A stretch of DNA of 34,948 nucleotides, from the NCBI GenBank assembly GCA_031269685.1, contig JAISYU010000041.1:1-34948 (forward strand), given 5' to 3'. The notes under the pieces were generated by a model. It worked only from the letters and a program-made list of their open reading frames with translations. It was not told where the DNA came from and searched no databases. Origin of the DNA: Dysgonamonadaceae bacterium (GTDB lineage Bacteria; Bacteroidota; Bacteroidia; Bacteroidales; Azobacteroidaceae). This document shows, piece by piece, positions 11,684-29,694 of the stretch; within the stretch, counting starts at the first letter, position 1, and the number at the start of each line of letters is the position of its first letter. The position numbers were made by a program, and so were the translations under genes.

Positions 11684-11754
11684 AGGAAAAATTTGCAGAT
11701 AGTGGTTAATGATTAATGATAAAAATCACCTAACCACGCTATTTTTTATTGAAA

Positions 11755-11774
11755 AATACCTTAAATAGGGTATT
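11755..11774. promoter_or_regulatory. Operator-like palindrome, copy 1
   Basis: AATACCTTAAATAGGGTATT; 8 of 10 positions match between the arms. It abuts and overlaps the -33 TTG, a place where a bound repressor would block transcription. One arm base differs from copy 2, so the two sites may bind with different strength. Confidence 0.55.
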
Positions 11775-11796
11775 GACAGGTATATCTTTTGTGTCG

Positions 11797-11804
11797 TACC
11801 TTTG
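11797..11804 (+). promoter_or_regulatory. -7 box of duplicated promoter, copy 1
   Basis: TACCTTTG followed by CAGCCGG, identical to copy 2. Start of transcription expected near 11810, about 42 nt before the GTG of the small ORF. Confidence 0.65.
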
Positions 11805-11851
11805 CAGCCGGAATTTATAACATTTTTTATTAACAGGTTTTTTTCAAAATA

Positions 11852-11998
11852 GTGAAACAGAAAGGATATTTTTTAGCGTCAGCGATAAGATTGTTCAGAC
11901 TGAATGATTTAATCGGGCTTTTGAAAGATAATTGGAGGGCGAATAGTTATGTCATATTTAACCCAACATGCATTTTTTTTGAAAAATACCCTAAATAG
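11852..11998 (+). CDS. Candidate 48-codon small protein between the duplicated promoters
   Basis: A GTG start 47 bp after the copy 1 -7 box opens a frame beginning MKQKGYFLASAIRLFRL and ending with TAG at 11996-11998, inside the second operator palindrome. The spacing from -7 box to start resembles that of the HMA gene behind copy 2 (52 bp). The peptide is amphipathic and basic in its first half (RLFRLNDLIGLLKDNW), with one Cys near the end; no family recognised. It could be a real small protein, a regulatory leader, or what remains of a deleted gene. Support is the frame and the promoter geometry only. Confidence 0.3.
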   Translation: MKQKGYFLASAIRLFRLNDLIGLLKDNWRANSYVIFNPTCIFFEKYPK

Positions 11999-12004
11999 GG
12001 TATT
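11985..12004. promoter_or_regulatory. Operator-like palindrome, copy 2
   Basis: AATACCCTAAATAGGGTATT, with 9 of 10 positions matching between arms. The TACCC/GGGTA arms recall operators of CsoR-type copper sensors, which would suit the metal-binding gene downstream, but this is resemblance only and the regulator is not in the window. Confidence 0.6.
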
Positions 12005-12026
12005 GACAAGCATATCTTTTGTGTTG

Positions 12027-12034
12027 TACCTTTG
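12027..12034 (+). promoter_or_regulatory. -7 box for the HMA gene
   Basis: TACCTTTG, 21 bp after TTG at 12003-12005. It gives a leader of about 45 nt before the ATG at 12087. Confidence 0.75.
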
Positions 12035-12086
12035 CAGCCGGAAATTATAACATTTTTATATATTAATACATTTTATTCTTAAAACA

Positions 12087-12812
12087 ATGAAAGTAAAAAG
12101 ATTATCAATCGTTGTATTGATGTTTGCCTTAGGAGTCGGATTGATTCAGGCGGACAAAACTGTAAAGTTCGTATCCAACAGTATTAGTTGTGGGGGATGC
12201 GCAGGCAAGATCAAGAATGCAGTAAGTGCGCTTGACGGAGTTTCGGGATCGGAAGTGAATCTCGAATCTAAAGTAGTAGGCATTACTTATGACGAGTCAA
12301 AGGTAAAGCCGGAACAAATCAAGGAGGCAATTGTTGCTGTCAAGCACACTGCTGAAGATTACGACGAAAATGCGGTTATTTTGAAGACTGCATCGTTCTA
12401 CGCCAAGCAAATCAACTGCGGCGGATGCGCAGGCAAGGTTAAGAAGAACATTGGCGCGGAAGCAAACATTATCAGTGTCGAGGCGGATCCTGCAACGAAG
12501 ATTGTAAAGATTGAATACGACGCTAACAAGACTTCGCGGAAGAATTTCAAGGATTATTTCAAGAAATTTGACTACACGGTGACTAATTACTATCCAAGCG
12601 AAAAGGTGAGTTACGCTCGCTACACGTTTGAGGACATTAGCAGCAAAGTTGCCGACATCGAAAAAACGCTTAAGGAAACGAAAGGCGTTCTCGATTACAC
12701 CACCAACGAAAAGACCAACACTCTTGCCGTTGCTTATAACAACACGTTAGTTACTGAGGAAGTTCTCGCAGAAAACCTTCAAAAGAATGACCTTAAACTT
12801 GCGTCAAAGTAA
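12087..12812 (+). CDS. Secreted protein with tandem heavy-metal-associated (HMA) domains
   Basis: 241 residues with a signal peptide (about 1-22, cut near IQA-DKT), so exported. Two HMA-type domains follow: residues 24-95 with Cys35-Gly-Gly-Cys38 and 100-170 with Cys111-Gly-Gly-Cys114. Each CGGCAGK is followed by a helix and has a beta-alpha-beta-beta-alpha-beta look. Such pairs bind soft metals, typically Cu(I), and pass them between proteins. A third stretch (about 176-236) fits the same fold but has DISSKV where CxxC should be. Export is notable, since many HMA proteins are cytoplasmic copper chaperones or P-type ATPase N-termini. It is 67 bp ahead of the plug-only SusC gene. A role as metal scavenger or donor for the outer-membrane system is inferred; the metal is unknown. 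Confidence 0.8.
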   Translation: MKVKRLSIVVLMFALGVGLIQADKTVKFVSNSISCGGCAGKIKNAVSALDGVSGSEVNLESKVVGITYDESKVKPEQIKEAIVAVKHTAEDYDENAVILKTASFYAKQINCGGCAGKVKKNIGAEANIISVEADPATKIVKIEYDANKTSRKNFKDYFKKFDYTVTNYYPSEKVSYARYTFEDISSKVADIEKTLKETKGVLDYTTNEKTNTLAVAYNNTLVTEEVLAENLQKNDLKLASK

Positions 12813-12879: not shown

Positions 12880-13698
12880 ATGAGAACGAAAGTATTATTA
12901 ATTGCAGCGCTGGGATTATTCCTTTCTGCATCGGCAGTTCAAGCGCAAAACATCAGAGGAAGGGTCGTTGACGAAAAAGGTACGCCTGTTGCTGGAGCTA
13001 TCGTATCGTACGGTAACAAACAGGGGCTTGCAGCCGACGACAATGGTGAGTTTAGCATTGACCGTACGAAAGCGGGCAGCAAACTCAAAGTCAGTTATCT
13101 TGGTTACAAAACGCAGGACGTTAATCTGAAAAAGGATGCGTCAAACGTTACTGTAACGCTTTTGGAAGATCAAAAGGCTCTCGACGACGTAGTTGTTGTC
13201 GGATACGGCACATCGACCAAAGAGAAGCTCACAGGTTCGGTAACTACTATCGACCGTAAGACCCTGGAGCAGTATTCCGGTCGTAGCGTATTGGATGTAC
13301 TCGACGGACGTATTGCCGGTTTGTACCTTACCTCAACGAGTGGACTTCCGGGAGCGAAAGCTAACATCACTGTACGCGGAACAAAAAACATTTCCGGCGG
13401 CGGAGCTGCTGATGCTTGCGGATGCTGCGGAGGAGGTGGCGGCGCTGGTGACAACACCTACAACGGTCCTCTTATCCTTATCGACGGCATACCGTATACC
13501 AATGAATCTGTCGGCGTCCTTGACATTGGTTCAGCCGGCTCGACAGGACCTCTTGCTTTCCTTAATACAAACGATGTTGAGCGTATAGACGTTCTGAAAG
13601 ACGCAGATGCAACTGCCATCTACGGTTCGCGCGGCGCTAACGGAGTTATCCTTATTACAACCAAGAAAGGATTACTTAAGCAGAAAACAAAAGTATAA
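12880..13698 (+). CDS. Stand-alone SusC N-terminal half: regulatory-like domain plus TonB plug, no barrel
   Basis: 272 residues with a signal peptide (1-22, AVQA-QN). A carboxypeptidase-D regulatory-like domain (about 23-97, NIRGRVVDEKGTPVAGAIV) is followed by DDVVVVGYGT, a SusC signature near the plug boundary, and a complete plug (about 105-262) ending IYGSRGANGVILITTKKG. It stops exactly where the barrel should begin, after a basic tail. The plug holds an insert after GTKNISGG with Cys180-Gly-Cys182-Cys183 and a glycine run, a possible metal site unlike ordinary SusC plugs. The next receptor gene has its own plug, so this is an additional plug and not simply the missing half of a broken gene. 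Both are complete ORFs separated by a repeat array and terminator. It could be a periplasmic accessory, a stable remnant, or a decoy; function unknown. Confidence 0.8.
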   Translation: MRTKVLLIAALGLFLSASAVQAQNIRGRVVDEKGTPVAGAIVSYGNKQGLAADDNGEFSIDRTKAGSKLKVSYLGYKTQDVNLKKDASNVTVTLLEDQKALDDVVVVGYGTSTKEKLTGSVTTIDRKTLEQYSGRSVLDVLDGRIAGLYLTSTSGLPGAKANITVRGTKNISGGGAADACGCCGGGGGAGDNTYNGPLILIDGIPYTNESVGVLDIGSAGSTGPLAFLNTNDVERIDVLKDADATAIYGSRGANGVILITTKKGLLKQKTKV

Positions 13699-13720
13699 TT
13701 GAGTGTTACACCATAACTTA

Positions 13721-13972
13721 TTCATGCGCTTAAATAACTCGTTCATGCACTTAAATACTTTATTCACGCACTTAAATATTTTGTTCACGCGCAGAAATAC
13801 TTTGTTCACGCGCATGAATGTTTTATTCACGCGCATGAATATTTTGTTCACGCGCATGAATGTTTCATTCACGCGCAGAAATATTTCATTCACGCGCAGA
13901 AACATTTTATTCACGCGCAGAAATATTTTGTTCACGCGCATGAATATTTTATTCACGCGCTACAATAACTTG
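13721..13972. repeat. 21-bp tandem array 1 (12 units)
   Basis: Twelve consecutive units of exactly 21 bp with no indels; the commonest form starts TTCACGCGCATGAAT and ends in a T-rich part (TTTTA or TTTTG). The first three units differ (TTCATGC... or TTCACGCAC... with TTAAAT). A partial unit follows. Both strands stay open in one frame (heptapeptides like LFTRMNI on plus, KIFLRVN on minus), which a 21-bp period allows without coding. It fills most of the gap between the plug gene and the terminator before SusC. Confidence 0.97.
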
Positions 13973-14078: not shown

Positions 14079-16793
14079 ATGACAAAAGTAATACAAAAAT
14101 CTTTTATAAAAAAATTCAGGTTAGTTTTCTACCTTTTCCTGTTAATTAGCGTATTTTCCGGGCAAGTTTCCGCTCAAAACGCTAAAAAAGATACTGCGCG
14201 CGTTTCCACTGTTCACGCTAAGGATGTAGAACAGGAACTTTCCACAAACACGGCGGGCGCATTGGAAGGACGTGCGGCTGGCGTTCAGTTGATTGATGGA
14301 AAAGTGCAAATAAGGGGACAGAAAAACCTGATCGGTTCTAATCCGCTGTTTATCGTTGACGGGGTAAGGCTTCCGTCGGAATATGTACTCGGCGGGGATG
14401 AATTGAATAACCCGCTCAATTTATTTAATTCAACCAATATTGAGAAAATTGAGCTGCTGAAATCTGCTGAAGAAACCGCCCGCTATGGTCCTCAGGGCGC
14501 TAATGGCGTTGTGTTGATTACCACAAAAAACAAACTTACATCGCATTTGCAGGTTGACGCCCGCATAAGCGCCGGTTTTATTCAGCCAAGCACCTGGTAT
14601 GACTTCCTTAACACGGAAGAATACCTTGATATTCGTCGTAAGGCGCTTGCCGCAGATAATATTACACCCACTGCAAGCAATGCTTACGATTTAGAGACTT
14701 GGAGTCCTAACGATTACACCGACTGGCAAAAGGAATACCTTCGCAAAACAGGCGGCGTCACTCAGGGACAGGTTAGTTTTTCGGGCGGAACGGGCAAAAC
14801 TTATTTCTACGTAAACGCCGACTATTACGAAACGAACAACATTTATCTTGCCGAAGACGATGATAAGACGAAGAGACTAAATACCCGTCTGCTTGTCAAC
14901 CATACTTCCGACAATGACAAGTTTAACTTCAACGCAGCATTGAGTTATGGCATTTTAAACTCCAAAGAGCGTGGTTCTGACCCTGACGGCGAAAGTTCAT
15001 ATCTTGTTTATGCGCCTAATATGCCGAAATATAATGAAGACGGTTCGTTATACTGGCTCAACTCGTCGGTAAGCAATCCATTGAGATTGAAATATACTTC
15101 TGCCGAGAAGCGAAACAGGTATATACTTGGAACAACGTCTTTTGCCTACCGTCCATTCAAGGAAATTGATGTAAAGTTGGATATTGGTTATAATCATACA
15201 GGTGCGGAAGAATACTCTGCCATTCTCAACGGTTATTTAAACCCTCACGCCAACAATTCATATCAAAACAGGGTAGTAAACGGAGGTTCTTTCAAGGATG
15301 TTATCTCAATCGAACCTTATGTGAATTATACCAAAGATATAGGTTACGGTACATTGACCGGATTGTTGGGTTTTACGTATCATGTACAGAGTGAAGGTAA
15401 TTATGCTTTTGAACTTCGTGACTTTCCTGATGAAACCCGTATCAAAACATTTGATGCCGCAGCCGTAAAAAATTCCGTTGAGGGTACAAGTGGAGGTAAT
15501 ATAAAGCGCGCTTCGGTATTTGGGAGGCTTGGTTATTTTTGGAAAAACCGTTATCTGTTAAACTTAAACTTCCGTCGGGACGGTTCATCTATCTTTGCAC
15601 CCGGACACAGGTGGAATTACAGTGGCGCTGCCGGTGCAGGCTGGATTTTCTCAAAAGAAGACTGGGTACAGGATAATTTGCCGTTTTTCAATTACGGAAA
15701 ACTGCGCGCAAGTTACGGTATAATCGGCAATGACCAGATAGCGTCATTCCTTTATTTGAATCAGTATCGATACAGCACTTATTCATACAACGGATCAAAG
15801 GGACTTTATTTAAGTTCGGTAGCTAATCCGAATTTCAAATGGGAAGTAACTCATGCTACTGATATTGCTCTTGAATTTGGGCTCTTTAAGGACAGGCTGC
15901 AAGGCAGTGTTACCCTCCAGCGTACATATACGGAACAGATTGTTGGTGGATTGCCATTATCTTCGCAGTCCGGTTTCACGGAATATAAGGACAATCTTCC
16001 CGACGCTTTGGTACGCAACCAGGGTATAGAAATCGAATTGATTGCTCCACAGAATTTTGGGAAGTTTGAATGGATACCGCAACTAACGCTTACCATTCCG
16101 CAATATAACACGCTTCTCAAATTCGACGGCATAGAAAACACATCGTATGCTACGACTTTTAAGGTCGGTGAATCAATGAACATTACACGTTTGTACAAAT
16201 TCACAGGCATCGACCCGACTAACGGTGCGCCTACGGTAGAGGACGTGGACGAAAACGGAGTAATATCATCAACTTACGACAAGCAGTTTTTGAAAGATAC
16301 CGACCCCGATTTATTCGGCGGGTTAGGCAATTCATTCCGTTATAAGAACCTTCGGCTTGACGTATTCTTTACTTTTGAATTGCGTCCCTTTGCGGAAGGA
16401 TACCTGAAGTCATATTATTATCCGCTCGGATATGTTAACAGGAATATTTTGAAAAAATATGCTACTGACTACTGGACGCCGGAAAATCCCAACGCATCGC
16501 GTCCGGGTTTGACAACAAGTACCAGCAGTACGATTGGGAACGCTTATTATCTCTGGTACACCGAATCCGATGCAGTATATACCAATAACTCGTATATCCG
16601 CCTCAAGAACATATCGCTCTCTTATGATTTGCCTGGAAAACTCCTCGACAAGTTCGGCGCTTCATACATATCATTGTTTGCGATAGGCGAAAACCTTGCG
16701 TTGTGGAGTAAGACTGACCAGTGGGATCCGACGACGGGACAATCCGTTCCTCCGCTTCGCACTGTCACGGCAGGTATTAAAGTAAGATTTTAA
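14079..16793 (+). CDS. SusC/RagA-like TonB-dependent outer-membrane receptor
   Basis: 904 residues: signal peptide (about 1-33, VSA-QN), plug (about 40-155, from STVHAKDVEQEL to ARYGPQGANGVVLITTK), then a 22-strand-type barrel ending PLRTVTAGIKVRF with a terminal Phe, as outer-membrane proteins do. The N-terminal carboxypeptidase-regulatory domain of classical SusC is absent, whereas the upstream plug-only protein has one. It imports a ligand across the outer membrane using TonB energy, with SusD as lid. It is 23 bp ahead of susD. The metal-type neighbours suggest a metal complex, but glycans or peptides cannot be excluded. Confidence 0.9.
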   Translation: MTKVIQKSFIKKFRLVFYLFLLISVFSGQVSAQNAKKDTARVSTVHAKDVEQELSTNTAGALEGRAAGVQLIDGKVQIRGQKNLIGSNPLFIVDGVRLPSEYVLGGDELNNPLNLFNSTNIEKIELLKSAEETARYGPQGANGVVLITTKNKLTSHLQVDARISAGFIQPSTWYDFLNTEEYLDIRRKALAADNITPTASNAYDLETWSPNDYTDWQKEYLRKTGGVTQGQVSFSGGTGKTYFYVNADYYETNNIYLAEDDDKTKRLNTRLLVNHTSDNDKFNFNAALSYGILNSKERGSDPDGESSYLVYAPNMPKYNEDGSLYWLNSSVSNPLRLKYTSAEKRNRYILGTTSFAYRPFKEIDVKLDIGYNHTGAEEYSAILNGYLNPHANNSYQNRVVNGGSFKDVISIEPYVNYTKDIGYGTLTGLLGFTYHVQSEGNYAFELRDFPDETRIKTFDAAAVKNSVEGTSGGNIKRASVFGRLGYFWKNRYLLNLNFRRDGSSIFAPGHRWNYSGAAGAGWIFSKEDWVQDNLPFFNYGKLRASYGIIGNDQIASFLYLNQYRYSTYSYNGSKGLYLSSVANPNFKWEVTHATDIALEFGLFKDRLQGSVTLQRTYTEQIVGGLPLSSQSGFTEYKDNLPDALVRNQGIEIELIAPQNFGKFEWIPQLTLTIPQYNTLLKFDGIENTSYATTFKVGESMNITRLYKFTGIDPTNGAPTVEDVDENGVISSTYDKQFLKDTDPDLFGGLGNSFRYKNLRLDVFFTFELRPFAEGYLKSYYYPLGYVNRNILKKYATDYWTPENPNASRPGLTTSTSSTIGNAYYLWYTESDAVYTNNSYIRLKNISLSYDLPGKLLDKFGASYISLFAIGENLALWSKTDQWDPTTGQSVPPLRTVTAGIKVRF

Positions 16794-16816: not shown

Positions 16817-18211
16817 ATGAAGACAAATATAAAAAATATATTCTTTTCCATAGTGATTGCCGTCTTAGGACTGTTTTTACGTTCATGCGAAAGTATCGTA
16901 GAATCATCCCCTCCATCAAGTGTTTATGCAGAATCGGAACTGCAAGGAAAAGCCGAAGCGCTTAGAGCGCTTGTGACGGGACTGTATACGGAAAATCTTA
17001 CCGGTAACGGCGGGCTTCTATATTACGAATATTCTTACCTGGGGCAGCCTGTCACCGACGATGTCTACCATAACCTCACTTCGGCTGCAGTCGTTGAATT
17101 GAACACCAATACATATTCGGCGGCAAATACTGCTCTTGCATATCTCTGGCAGGAATCATACAGGAGCATATTTCACAGCAACAATGTAATAAGGTTGATT
17201 TCGGAGACAACGCTGTTGACTGAAGACGAAAAGGCTAAATATATAGGTGAAGCAAAGTACTTTCGCGCCTTTCACTATTTCCTTTTGACATCATTCTACG
17301 GAAACGTGCCTTTGATAACGTCGCTTGACATAGTGAAAACAACGCTTCAGCCGCGAGACCCTAAAGAGACAGTCGTCCGCTTTATCCTCAATGACTTGCT
17401 TGATGCCGAACAACTCCTCGCCGGAGGCGATAATCCTAAAGTCAAGATAACCGAATGGGCAGCCAAATCACTTCTTGCCCGTCAATATCTCTATGCACAG
17501 AAATATGACAGTGCAGAAATCAAGGCGAACGACGTTATAACAAACTCAGGATACACCCTTGAGGCTGACCTCGACAAAGTATTCCTCCGTCAGAGCACTG
17601 AAACAATATTCACAAGTTCTTCCAGCGGTTCAATATCATCTTATGTCGACAGGACGTATTACGGTTACATTTCTCTAAACAATAATTACTTCCGCCTCGA
17701 CAGTAACCTCATCAAATCATTTGAACCGAATGACCTGCGTGCGACAAAATGGGTAAAGGCAGTCAGTGGATTCCCTCACCAGTATAAATACAAAAAGAAT
17801 GCAGCAACTTCGACTGGCGACGCTGAGGACCAGGTCTTCCTGCGTCTTGCCGAACAGTTCCTCATACGCGCCGAAGCGAGGGCGCAGCGGAATAACCTGC
17901 CCGGAGCCATCGCCGACATCGACACTATCCGCACCCGCGCCGGACTCGATAAGTTGCCGCAAACGCTAAGCAAAGAAGAAATACTGTTGGCAATCGAAAA
18001 CGAACGCAGGCACGAACTCTTCATCGAAGAGGCTCATCGTTGGTGGGACTTGACACGAACCGGAAGGGCGGGGGCAATACTTGGCAACAAAACCAATTTC
18101 CCTAACAAGCAATGGGAAGACTATAAAGCCTTGTGGCCCGTCCCGCAAAAAGAGATTGAAAAAAACCCCAACCTGGAGCCACAGAATCCAGGGTACGGCG
18201 AAATAAATTAA
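16817..18211 (+). CDS. SusD/RagB-like nutrient-binding lipoprotein
   Basis: 464 residues. Signal peptide with lipobox FLRSC makes Cys24 the lipidated residue, so it sits on the outer membrane. The TPR-rich SusD fold is shown by the N-terminal ALRALVTGLY region, YLWQESYRSIFHSNNVI, EAKYFRAFHYFLLTSFYGNVPLI, and the C-terminal ENERRHELFIEEAHRWWDLTRTG. It forms the hinged lid on the SusC channel. It is transcribed with the receptor (23-bp gap) and followed by a strong terminator. Shorter than many glycan-binding SusDs. Ligand unknown. Confidence 0.93.
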   Translation: MKTNIKNIFFSIVIAVLGLFLRSCESIVESSPPSSVYAESELQGKAEALRALVTGLYTENLTGNGGLLYYEYSYLGQPVTDDVYHNLTSAAVVELNTNTYSAANTALAYLWQESYRSIFHSNNVIRLISETTLLTEDEKAKYIGEAKYFRAFHYFLLTSFYGNVPLITSLDIVKTTLQPRDPKETVVRFILNDLLDAEQLLAGGDNPKVKITEWAAKSLLARQYLYAQKYDSAEIKANDVITNSGYTLEADLDKVFLRQSTETIFTSSSSGSISSYVDRTYYGYISLNNNYFRLDSNLIKSFEPNDLRATKWVKAVSGFPHQYKYKKNAATSTGDAEDQVFLRLAEQFLIRAEARAQRNNLPGAIADIDTIRTRAGLDKLPQTLSKEEILLAIENERRHELFIEEAHRWWDLTRTGRAGAILGNKTNFPNKQWEDYKALWPVPQKEIEKNPNLEPQNPGYGEIN

Positions 18212-18305: not shown

Positions 18306-18436
18306 GCGGCTAATGACAGATCTTTCTTTTGCCTGAACTATGATTTTGAATACTTGAAATGATTAACATAATTCAGTAAGCCTGATAATGAGTAGAATTA
18401 CAGTTCATACAATCTCCAAATTTGGCAAATTGTCGC

Positions 18437-18982
18437 GTTTAAAACGTATAACGCCGCATTTAAAACGTATAACGTCGCGTTTAAAACATAAACATTTAGG
18501 TTTTAAACCTAAAAATATATGTTTATAACTGAAAAATTTCACATGAAAACCTAAAAATATCACTTTACAACTGAAAAATATCAGTCAAAAACCTAAAAAT
18601 ATCAGTTTAAAACCTAAACGTTTAAGTTTTAAACCTAAAAATATCAGTTGACAACTGAAAATTATCAGTCAAAAACCTAAAAATATCAGTTGACAACTGA
18701 AAATTATCAGTCAAAAACCTAAAAATATCAGTTGACAACTGAAAACTATCAGTCAAAAACCTAAAACTATCAGTCAAAAACGTATTACTATCACATAAAA
18801 ACGTATTACTATCAGTCAAAAACGTATTACTATCACATAAAAACGTATTACTATCAGTCAAAAACGTATTACTATCACATAAAAACGTATTACTATCACA
18901 TAAAAACCTATAACTATCACATAAAAACATAAAAGTATAGGATGAAAATATAAAAATACAGGACGAAAATCTGTATGCTTTT
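18437..18982. repeat. 21-bp tandem array 2 (26 units)
   Basis: About 26 consecutive 21-bp units, no indels over 546 bp; the edges are more degenerate. Unit types occur in blocks: GTTTAAAACGTATAACG-type first, then alternating GTCAAAAACCTAAAA and GTTGACAACTGAAAA types (a 42-bp dimer), then alternating GTCAAAAACGTATTA and CATAAAAACGTATTA types. Phased A-tracts suggest curved DNA. Junctions create inverted repeats such as CAGTTGACAACTG. Only the minus strand keeps a long open frame (heptapeptides such as FLTDSNT); not accepted as a gene. Lies between the susD terminator and hisD. Confidence 0.97.
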
Positions 18983-29364: not shown

Positions 29365-29694
29365 ATGATTGCCGCCTCAAATAACATAAGTTCCAAGCCA
29401 TTTGGATTTAAATCTGACCCCCTTAGATTTAAATCCGAGACTTCTGGATTTAAATCTGAGCCTTCTGGATTTAAATCTGAGACCTTTGGATTTAAATCTG
29501 ACCCCCTTAGATTTAAATCTGAGACCTTTGGATTTAAATCCGAGCCTTCTGGATTTAAATCTGAGACCTTTGGATTTAAATCCAAGCCATCTGGATTTAA
29601 ATCCAAAACCAATAAATCCGAACAATTCGGATCTTGTACTGAAGAGATTTTAAACATTAGTATAAACAAATTAATTCAAATTTACTATGAGTAA
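29365..29694 (+). CDS. Uncertain heptapeptide-repeat ORF overlapping the next gene
   Basis: 109 codons starting MIAASNN; most is a heptapeptide repeat (variants of GFKSETF and GFKSEPS) made by 21-bp array 3, followed by a non-repeat tail (EQFGSCTEEILNISINKLIQ). Its stop (29692-29694) overlaps the ATG of the next gene at 29687 by 8 bp, as in coupled translation. Other frames and the opposite strand are also open across the array, so openness is weak evidence. It may be a translated repeat leader or simply non-coding. Confidence 0.3.
   Translation: MIAASNNISSKPFGFKSDPLRFKSETSGFKSEPSGFKSETFGFKSDPLRFKSETFGFKSEPSGFKSETFGFKSKPSGFKSKTNKSEQFGSCTEEILNISINKLIQIYYE
29403..29612. repeat. 21-bp tandem array 3 (10 units)
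   Basis: Ten consecutive 21-bp units without indels. Each starts TGGATTTAAATC or TAGATTTAAATC, then a variable half (TGAGACCTT, CGAGCCTTC, TGACCCCCT and similar). The core GATTTAAATC is a perfect 10-bp palindrome, so identical two-fold sites recur every 21 bp. Unrelated in sequence to arrays 1 and 2. Confidence 0.97.

Follow-up and report, generated by a model that had tools for sequence, protein, structure and literature searches.

A doubled promoter-operator cassette in a Dysgonamonadaceae genome and the probable sulfur-supply regulon to which it belongs

The doubled block ahead of an outer-membrane importer operon in a Dysgonamonadaceae bacterium consists of two copies of a switch that also precedes genes for cysteine and methionine synthesis in the same genome. 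Sequence comparisons show that this switch also stands before sulfur-assimilation genes across gut Bacteroidales, and its reader is probably an undescribed regulator of the NarL type. We consider it likely that this regulator, a NarL/FixJ-type protein encoded on contig C86, reads the duplicated sigma-ABfr operators and controls a sulfur-supply regulon that includes the operon in the window (the whole stretch of 34,948 nucleotides analysed here). The open-access papers searched contained no account of the control of cysteine and methionine synthesis in Bacteroidales, nor of a Bacteroides sulfur regulator. With a defined site at a fixed spacing and a linked regulator, this regulon can be tested directly, including in B. 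fragilis and Parabacteroides.

Two copies of a promoter-operator cassette

The earlier note had reported that two blocks (11751-11827 and 11981-12057) are identical at 72 of 77 positions, with a spacing of exactly 230 bp, including a palindrome, a -33 TTG and a TACCTTTG box, and pairwise comparison within the window bears out each of these points. The full direct repeat is longer (Table 1) at the same offset, and outside it similarity drops abruptly to 4-10 identities per 20-base block, near chance. The six mismatches between the cassettes fall at 11748, 11761, 11779, 11781, 11795 and 11814 (copy 1 numbering), and the TTG and the TACCTTTG box are unaltered in both. The palindrome of copy 2 is perfect except at its centre, and that of copy 1 (TACCTT...) carries a single arm change. 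With up to three mismatches allowed, the palindrome has five matches in the window versus 0.29 expected, four of which are the strand pairs at the two copies.

Promoters of the Bacteroidetes primary sigma factor have a -33 TTTG and a -7 TAnnTTTG element (PMC7366714). In each cassette, the 16-bp palindrome TACCCTA-AA-TAGGGTA abuts the -33 TTG and lies 24 nt ahead of a TAnnTTTG box, and the sigma-ABfr elements are recognizable in both, with TTG alone present of the -33 element. Judged by its sequence, each cassette combines a full promoter for the primary sigma factor (sigma-ABfr) with an operator directly adjoining the -33 element; the earlier identification of a promoter-operator block was right. 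Taking -7 as the centre of the -7 box places the centre of the window palindromes near -43. A fixed distance between operator and promoter fits an activator that touches RNA polymerase, and a repressor at this position is also possible. A search of the locus for riboswitches and other RNA families returned none.

Table 1. Features of the doubled block and of the operon behind it (window positions)
Feature	Positions	Strand	Basis
Promoter-operator cassette, copy 1	11743..11827	+	direct repeat, 79/85 same as copy 2
Operator 1, TACCTTAAATAGGGTA, one changed arm base	11757..11772	+	palindrome searches
Promoter 1, -33 TTG	11773..11775	+	consensus PMC7366714
Promoter 1, -7 box TACCTTTG, 24 nt past operator 1	11797..11804	+	
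145-bp spacer separating the cassettes, without long ORF	11828..11972	.	
Promoter-operator cassette, copy 2, adjoining the gene	11973..12057	+	direct repeat
Operator 2, TACCCTAAATAGGGTA, 7-2-7 inverted repeat	11987..12002	+	palindrome searches
Promoter 2, -33 TTG	12003..12005	+	
Promoter 2, -7 box TACCTTTG	12027..12034	+	
Probably exported protein with HMA domains, two with CGGC motifs	12087..12812	+	PF00403, E 1.6e-29, 3 stretches
Conserved stand-alone SusC N-terminal and plug protein, no barrel, Cys-rich insert	12880..13698	+	
SusC/RagA-type TonB-dependent transporter	14079..16793	+	TIGR04056
SusD-type lipoprotein	16817..18211	+	PF07980

Sites in the source genome and in other Bacteroidales

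The source genome is a draft of 2.23 Mb, 93% complete, in which the palindrome matches 13 times in forward and 9 times in reverse orientation (0 and 1 for a reversed-pattern control), amounting to about 13 distinct sites. A TAnnTTTG box follows the sites at a distance of 23 nt, except that the distance is 24 nt for both window copies and for one SusD promoter. The genes behind them comprise cysK, metY and that of the NarL-type regulator itself, together with genes for a thioredoxin-like lipoprotein, two SusC and two SusD proteins, a BspA-like repeat protein, a small membrane protein and a small helix-turn-helix-like protein, the HMA operon of the window, and a TonB receptor operon (C12) whose last gene encodes a second HMA protein. 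On contig C86, the regulator gene and cysK are separated by a single palindrome, with each of the two -7 boxes 23 nt away, and the closest relatives are arranged alike. The earlier note had expected the palindrome to lead to further metal genes; the second HMA operon agrees with this expectation, but the best-conserved targets are sulfur genes rather than metal genes.

This association with sulfur genes extends to other genomes. Among 80 loci collected by similarity to the regulator, 39 have a cysK or metY-type gene within ~4 kb, some of the metY-type matches being distant paralogs, and one more has cysD only. In these loci, which were thus picked by regulator similarity, and with two mismatches allowed in palindrome plus -7 box, the site occurs in 24 of 30 cysK upstream regions versus 11 of 583 for other genes (Fisher p 3e-29); metY genes there mostly have no site. 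Across 198 Bacteroidales genomes, exact sites before cysK or metY are found in 9 of the 18 that bear the regulator and in none of the 180 others (Fisher p 5e-11), where presence means a close homolog with E below 1e-27, a cut-off chosen after the list was viewed. Half of the regulator-bearing genomes hence have no exact cysK/metY site, and the Fisher p-values overstate independence because the genomes share ancestry. The species with a cysK site include B. fragilis, B. fluxus, B. heparinolyticus, B. propionicigenes, Parabacteroides gordonii and Dysgonomonas sp. 520.

The strongest sign of a sulfur theme is the cysDNH-sulfite reductase cluster of one genome (G066). Two sites stand ahead of this cluster, which holds genes for a PstB-like ATPase, sulfite reductase, ThiF, a PstS-like binding protein and permeases, as well as siroheme-type genes, cysD, cysN and cysH. 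Other site-bearing genes encode sodium:dicarboxylate-family symporters and a MetQ-like lipoprotein. The regulon also suggests functions for importers that have no assigned substrate, such as the SusCD/HMA operon of the window and the PstS-like ABC transporter beside cysDNH.

Two loci deserve separate mention. At L297:1-15403, the PstS/PstB-like ABC transporter inside the cysDNH-sulfite reductase cluster is a candidate sulfate importer. At L218:1004-7748 (genome G024), an exact palindrome is followed by nifH and nifB-like genes, with nifDK absent from the stretch covered, and by alcohol dehydrogenase-like and aminotransferase-like genes, while a second site precedes a MetQ-like lipoprotein gene.

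The candidate regulator and its rivals

The best candidate for the reader of these sites is the orphan NarL/FixJ-type protein encoded divergently from cysK (L003:812-1459, minus strand). It has a C-terminal LuxR/GerE helix-turn-helix (PF00196, E 1.5e-15), and the profile of its family matches NarL over nearly the full length (E 3.5e-21) and VraR too. As for the conserved Asp and Lys of an N-terminal receiver domain, residues D56 and K106 are invariant in the family and D10 is nearly so; the Pfam receiver model gave no score. NarL sites are inverted heptamers 2 bp apart, and the one at ogt abuts the -35 element at -44.5 (PMC7419079). The window operators are similar to these E. coli 7-2-7 operators (ogt, yeaR; PMC7419079) in their inverted heptamers, 2-bp gap and TACYYMT-like half-site; they also abut the upstream promoter element with a centre near -44, and ogt likewise has two sites. 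A compilation of 20 cysK/metY sites gives approximately TACCMTA-WW-TAKGGTA, which agrees with a NarL-type heptamer pair (TACYYMT-like, 2-bp spacer), the TACC and GGTA ends being set by the search pattern and the inner bases free. There are differences as well. The window promoter is of the Bacteroidetes -33/-7 type, the genes concern sulfur supply, and no partner kinase gene is adjacent; moreover, unlike those at ogt, the two window sites are separated by 230 bp and each possesses a complete promoter of its own.

From these features we infer that the C86 protein most likely binds the palindrome, that it would act as an activator, and that its signal would be a shortage of sulfur amino acids, at which a dimer centred at about -43 would help RNA polymerase to start, much as NarL does at ogt. 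Its targets would be cysK, metY and, in genomes that have them, the genes of sulfate assimilation, along with thiol/disulfide proteins and certain outer-membrane importers. The window operon for the HMA protein, plug protein, SusC and SusD would also come under its control, with copy 1 supplying an additional regulated start some 230 bp farther upstream. Counting against this reading, many of the genes behind sites (SusC/D, BspA-like, HMA proteins) have no obvious connection with sulfur, and the source genome also encodes a second NarL-type regulator. A more tentative proposal is that a Bacteroidales-wide sulfur regulon, including TonB/SusCD importers with heavy-metal-binding partners, is run by an orphan regulator of the NarL type whose sensing of sulfur status needs no partner kinase. 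If true, this would imply that a sulfur or metal-thiolate source is taken up through the outer membrane.

The earlier note had instead proposed a CsoR-type operator, in which a copper- or metal-sensing repressor would bind the TACCC/GGGTA arms and control metal genes. The arms are indeed like those of CsoR/CstR operators (PMC3902906), and HMA proteins in two palindrome-led operons also fit. However, CsoR operators differ in being G-tract pseudopalindromes, the 93%-complete source genome has no detected match to the CsoR family (PF02583), for which control genomes scored, and the sites lead cysK, metY and the cysDNH cluster. Given these observations and the co-occurrence with the NarL-type regulator, the copper-sensor reading fails, and we regard it as highly improbable. 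Nevertheless, some link to metals could exist, since the second HMA-domain operon carries the palindrome.

Among the known cysteine regulators, CysB belongs to the LysR family and CymR to the Rrf2 family. The genes in their regulons are of similar kinds (cysK, sulfate assimilation, sulfur importers), whereas the candidate here is of the NarL/FixJ family. An Rrf2/CymR-type sulfur regulon was rejected because no Rrf2-family gene was detected in the 93%-complete source genome.

A repressor of another family, for example of an iron or redox type, might also read the palindromes, including those at cysK, with the NarL-type gene a mere neighbour or target. The site adjoins RNA polymerase territory, as would suit a repressor, and equally spaced TACCTA-N4-TAGGTA boxes, related in sequence, are found ahead of feoAB, HmuY-like and TonB genes of other Bacteroidales. 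Because a related motif precedes feoAB where the close regulator homolog is absent, another protein can evidently read a related site. However, feoAB in the source genome has no such site, which also led us to reject an iron-box identity for the palindrome; no Rrf2 gene was found, the cysK sites track the NarL-type gene, and the 7-2-7 half-sites fit the NarL family. We therefore consider such a repressor unlikely, and prefer the C86 protein.

The feoAB-type palindromes may form a class of their own. In about 20 Bacteroidales genomes, TACCTA-N4-TAGGTATTG-like palindromes lie 23 nt before the feoAB -7 box, and others occur at HmuY-like, TonB, ferredoxin and hemerythrin genes (L148, L153, L156, L158, L161, L166, L170-L172, L205, L207, L209, L212, L234, L237, L239, L241-L243, L257, L273). 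This is a candidate iron box distinct from the sulfur site, the two classes sharing TACC/GGTA by construction of the search pattern. A second NarL-type regulator (L213:1474-2750, L149, L255) adjoins a gene for a hemerythrin-domain (RIC-like) protein, and at L149 and L255 an iron-box-like site lies upstream of this pair.

The importer operon and its upstream copy

The gene for CxxC metal-binding domains recognized in the earlier note does encode HMA domains, in a protein with a signal-like N terminus. A contig scan gave no homologs of it, and a whole-genome search found five relatives in the family. All four relatives with an upstream region have the palindrome, spaced as elsewhere, and in one of them the -7 box differs by a single base; the HMA operon hence seems to belong stably to the regulon. 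On this comparative basis, the window operon probably belongs to the sulfur-supply regulon. The plug protein with its Cys-rich insert adjoins the HMA gene, and a full SusC comes next in several genomes. Stand-alone plug proteins of 265-272 aa are encoded in the window and at L292:2344-3153, L294:2269-3066, L295:2253-3050 and L296:658-1455. A truncation or frameshift as the origin of the short SusC ORF was rejected, because the four relatives share a plug-only protein of 265-269 aa.

Identity between the two window cassettes is 93%, and no other site in the genome exceeds 87% identity to them, the nearest being the SusD promoter that shares the 24-nt spacing and a promoter on C34. Copy 1 is hence either a recent duplicate or has been homogenised by conversion. 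There is perhaps an even chance that it is a relic, left by a lost in-between gene or by duplication of the cassette and now devoid of a role, which would be compatible with regulation by the C86 protein. The spacer has no long ORF, the arm of copy 1 is mutated, and in G024 (L296) two HMA-operon cassettes 395 bp apart flank a reading frame that, by eye only, resembles a thioredoxin-like end and seems to be a decayed gene. However, copy 1 keeps its -33 and -7 elements and most of the operator, and the G024 cassettes are only 48/85 alike, so that they do not stem from the duplication seen in the window.

Alternatively, the paired operators might cooperate through looping or cooperative binding, as a 230-bp spacing comes close to an integral number of helical turns and two palindromes are likewise present in L295 and L296. 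The remaining sites of the regulon are mostly single, though, with one at the HMA operon of L292 and probably one at that of L294. Looping is not needed, and we consider joint action of the two operators quite improbable.

The window also contains tandem repeats. Between the plug gene and SusC (13718-13960) lies a 21-bp repeat of 11.6 copies, and further arrays at 18434-18970 and 29401-29603 have the same 21-bp period with different sequences.
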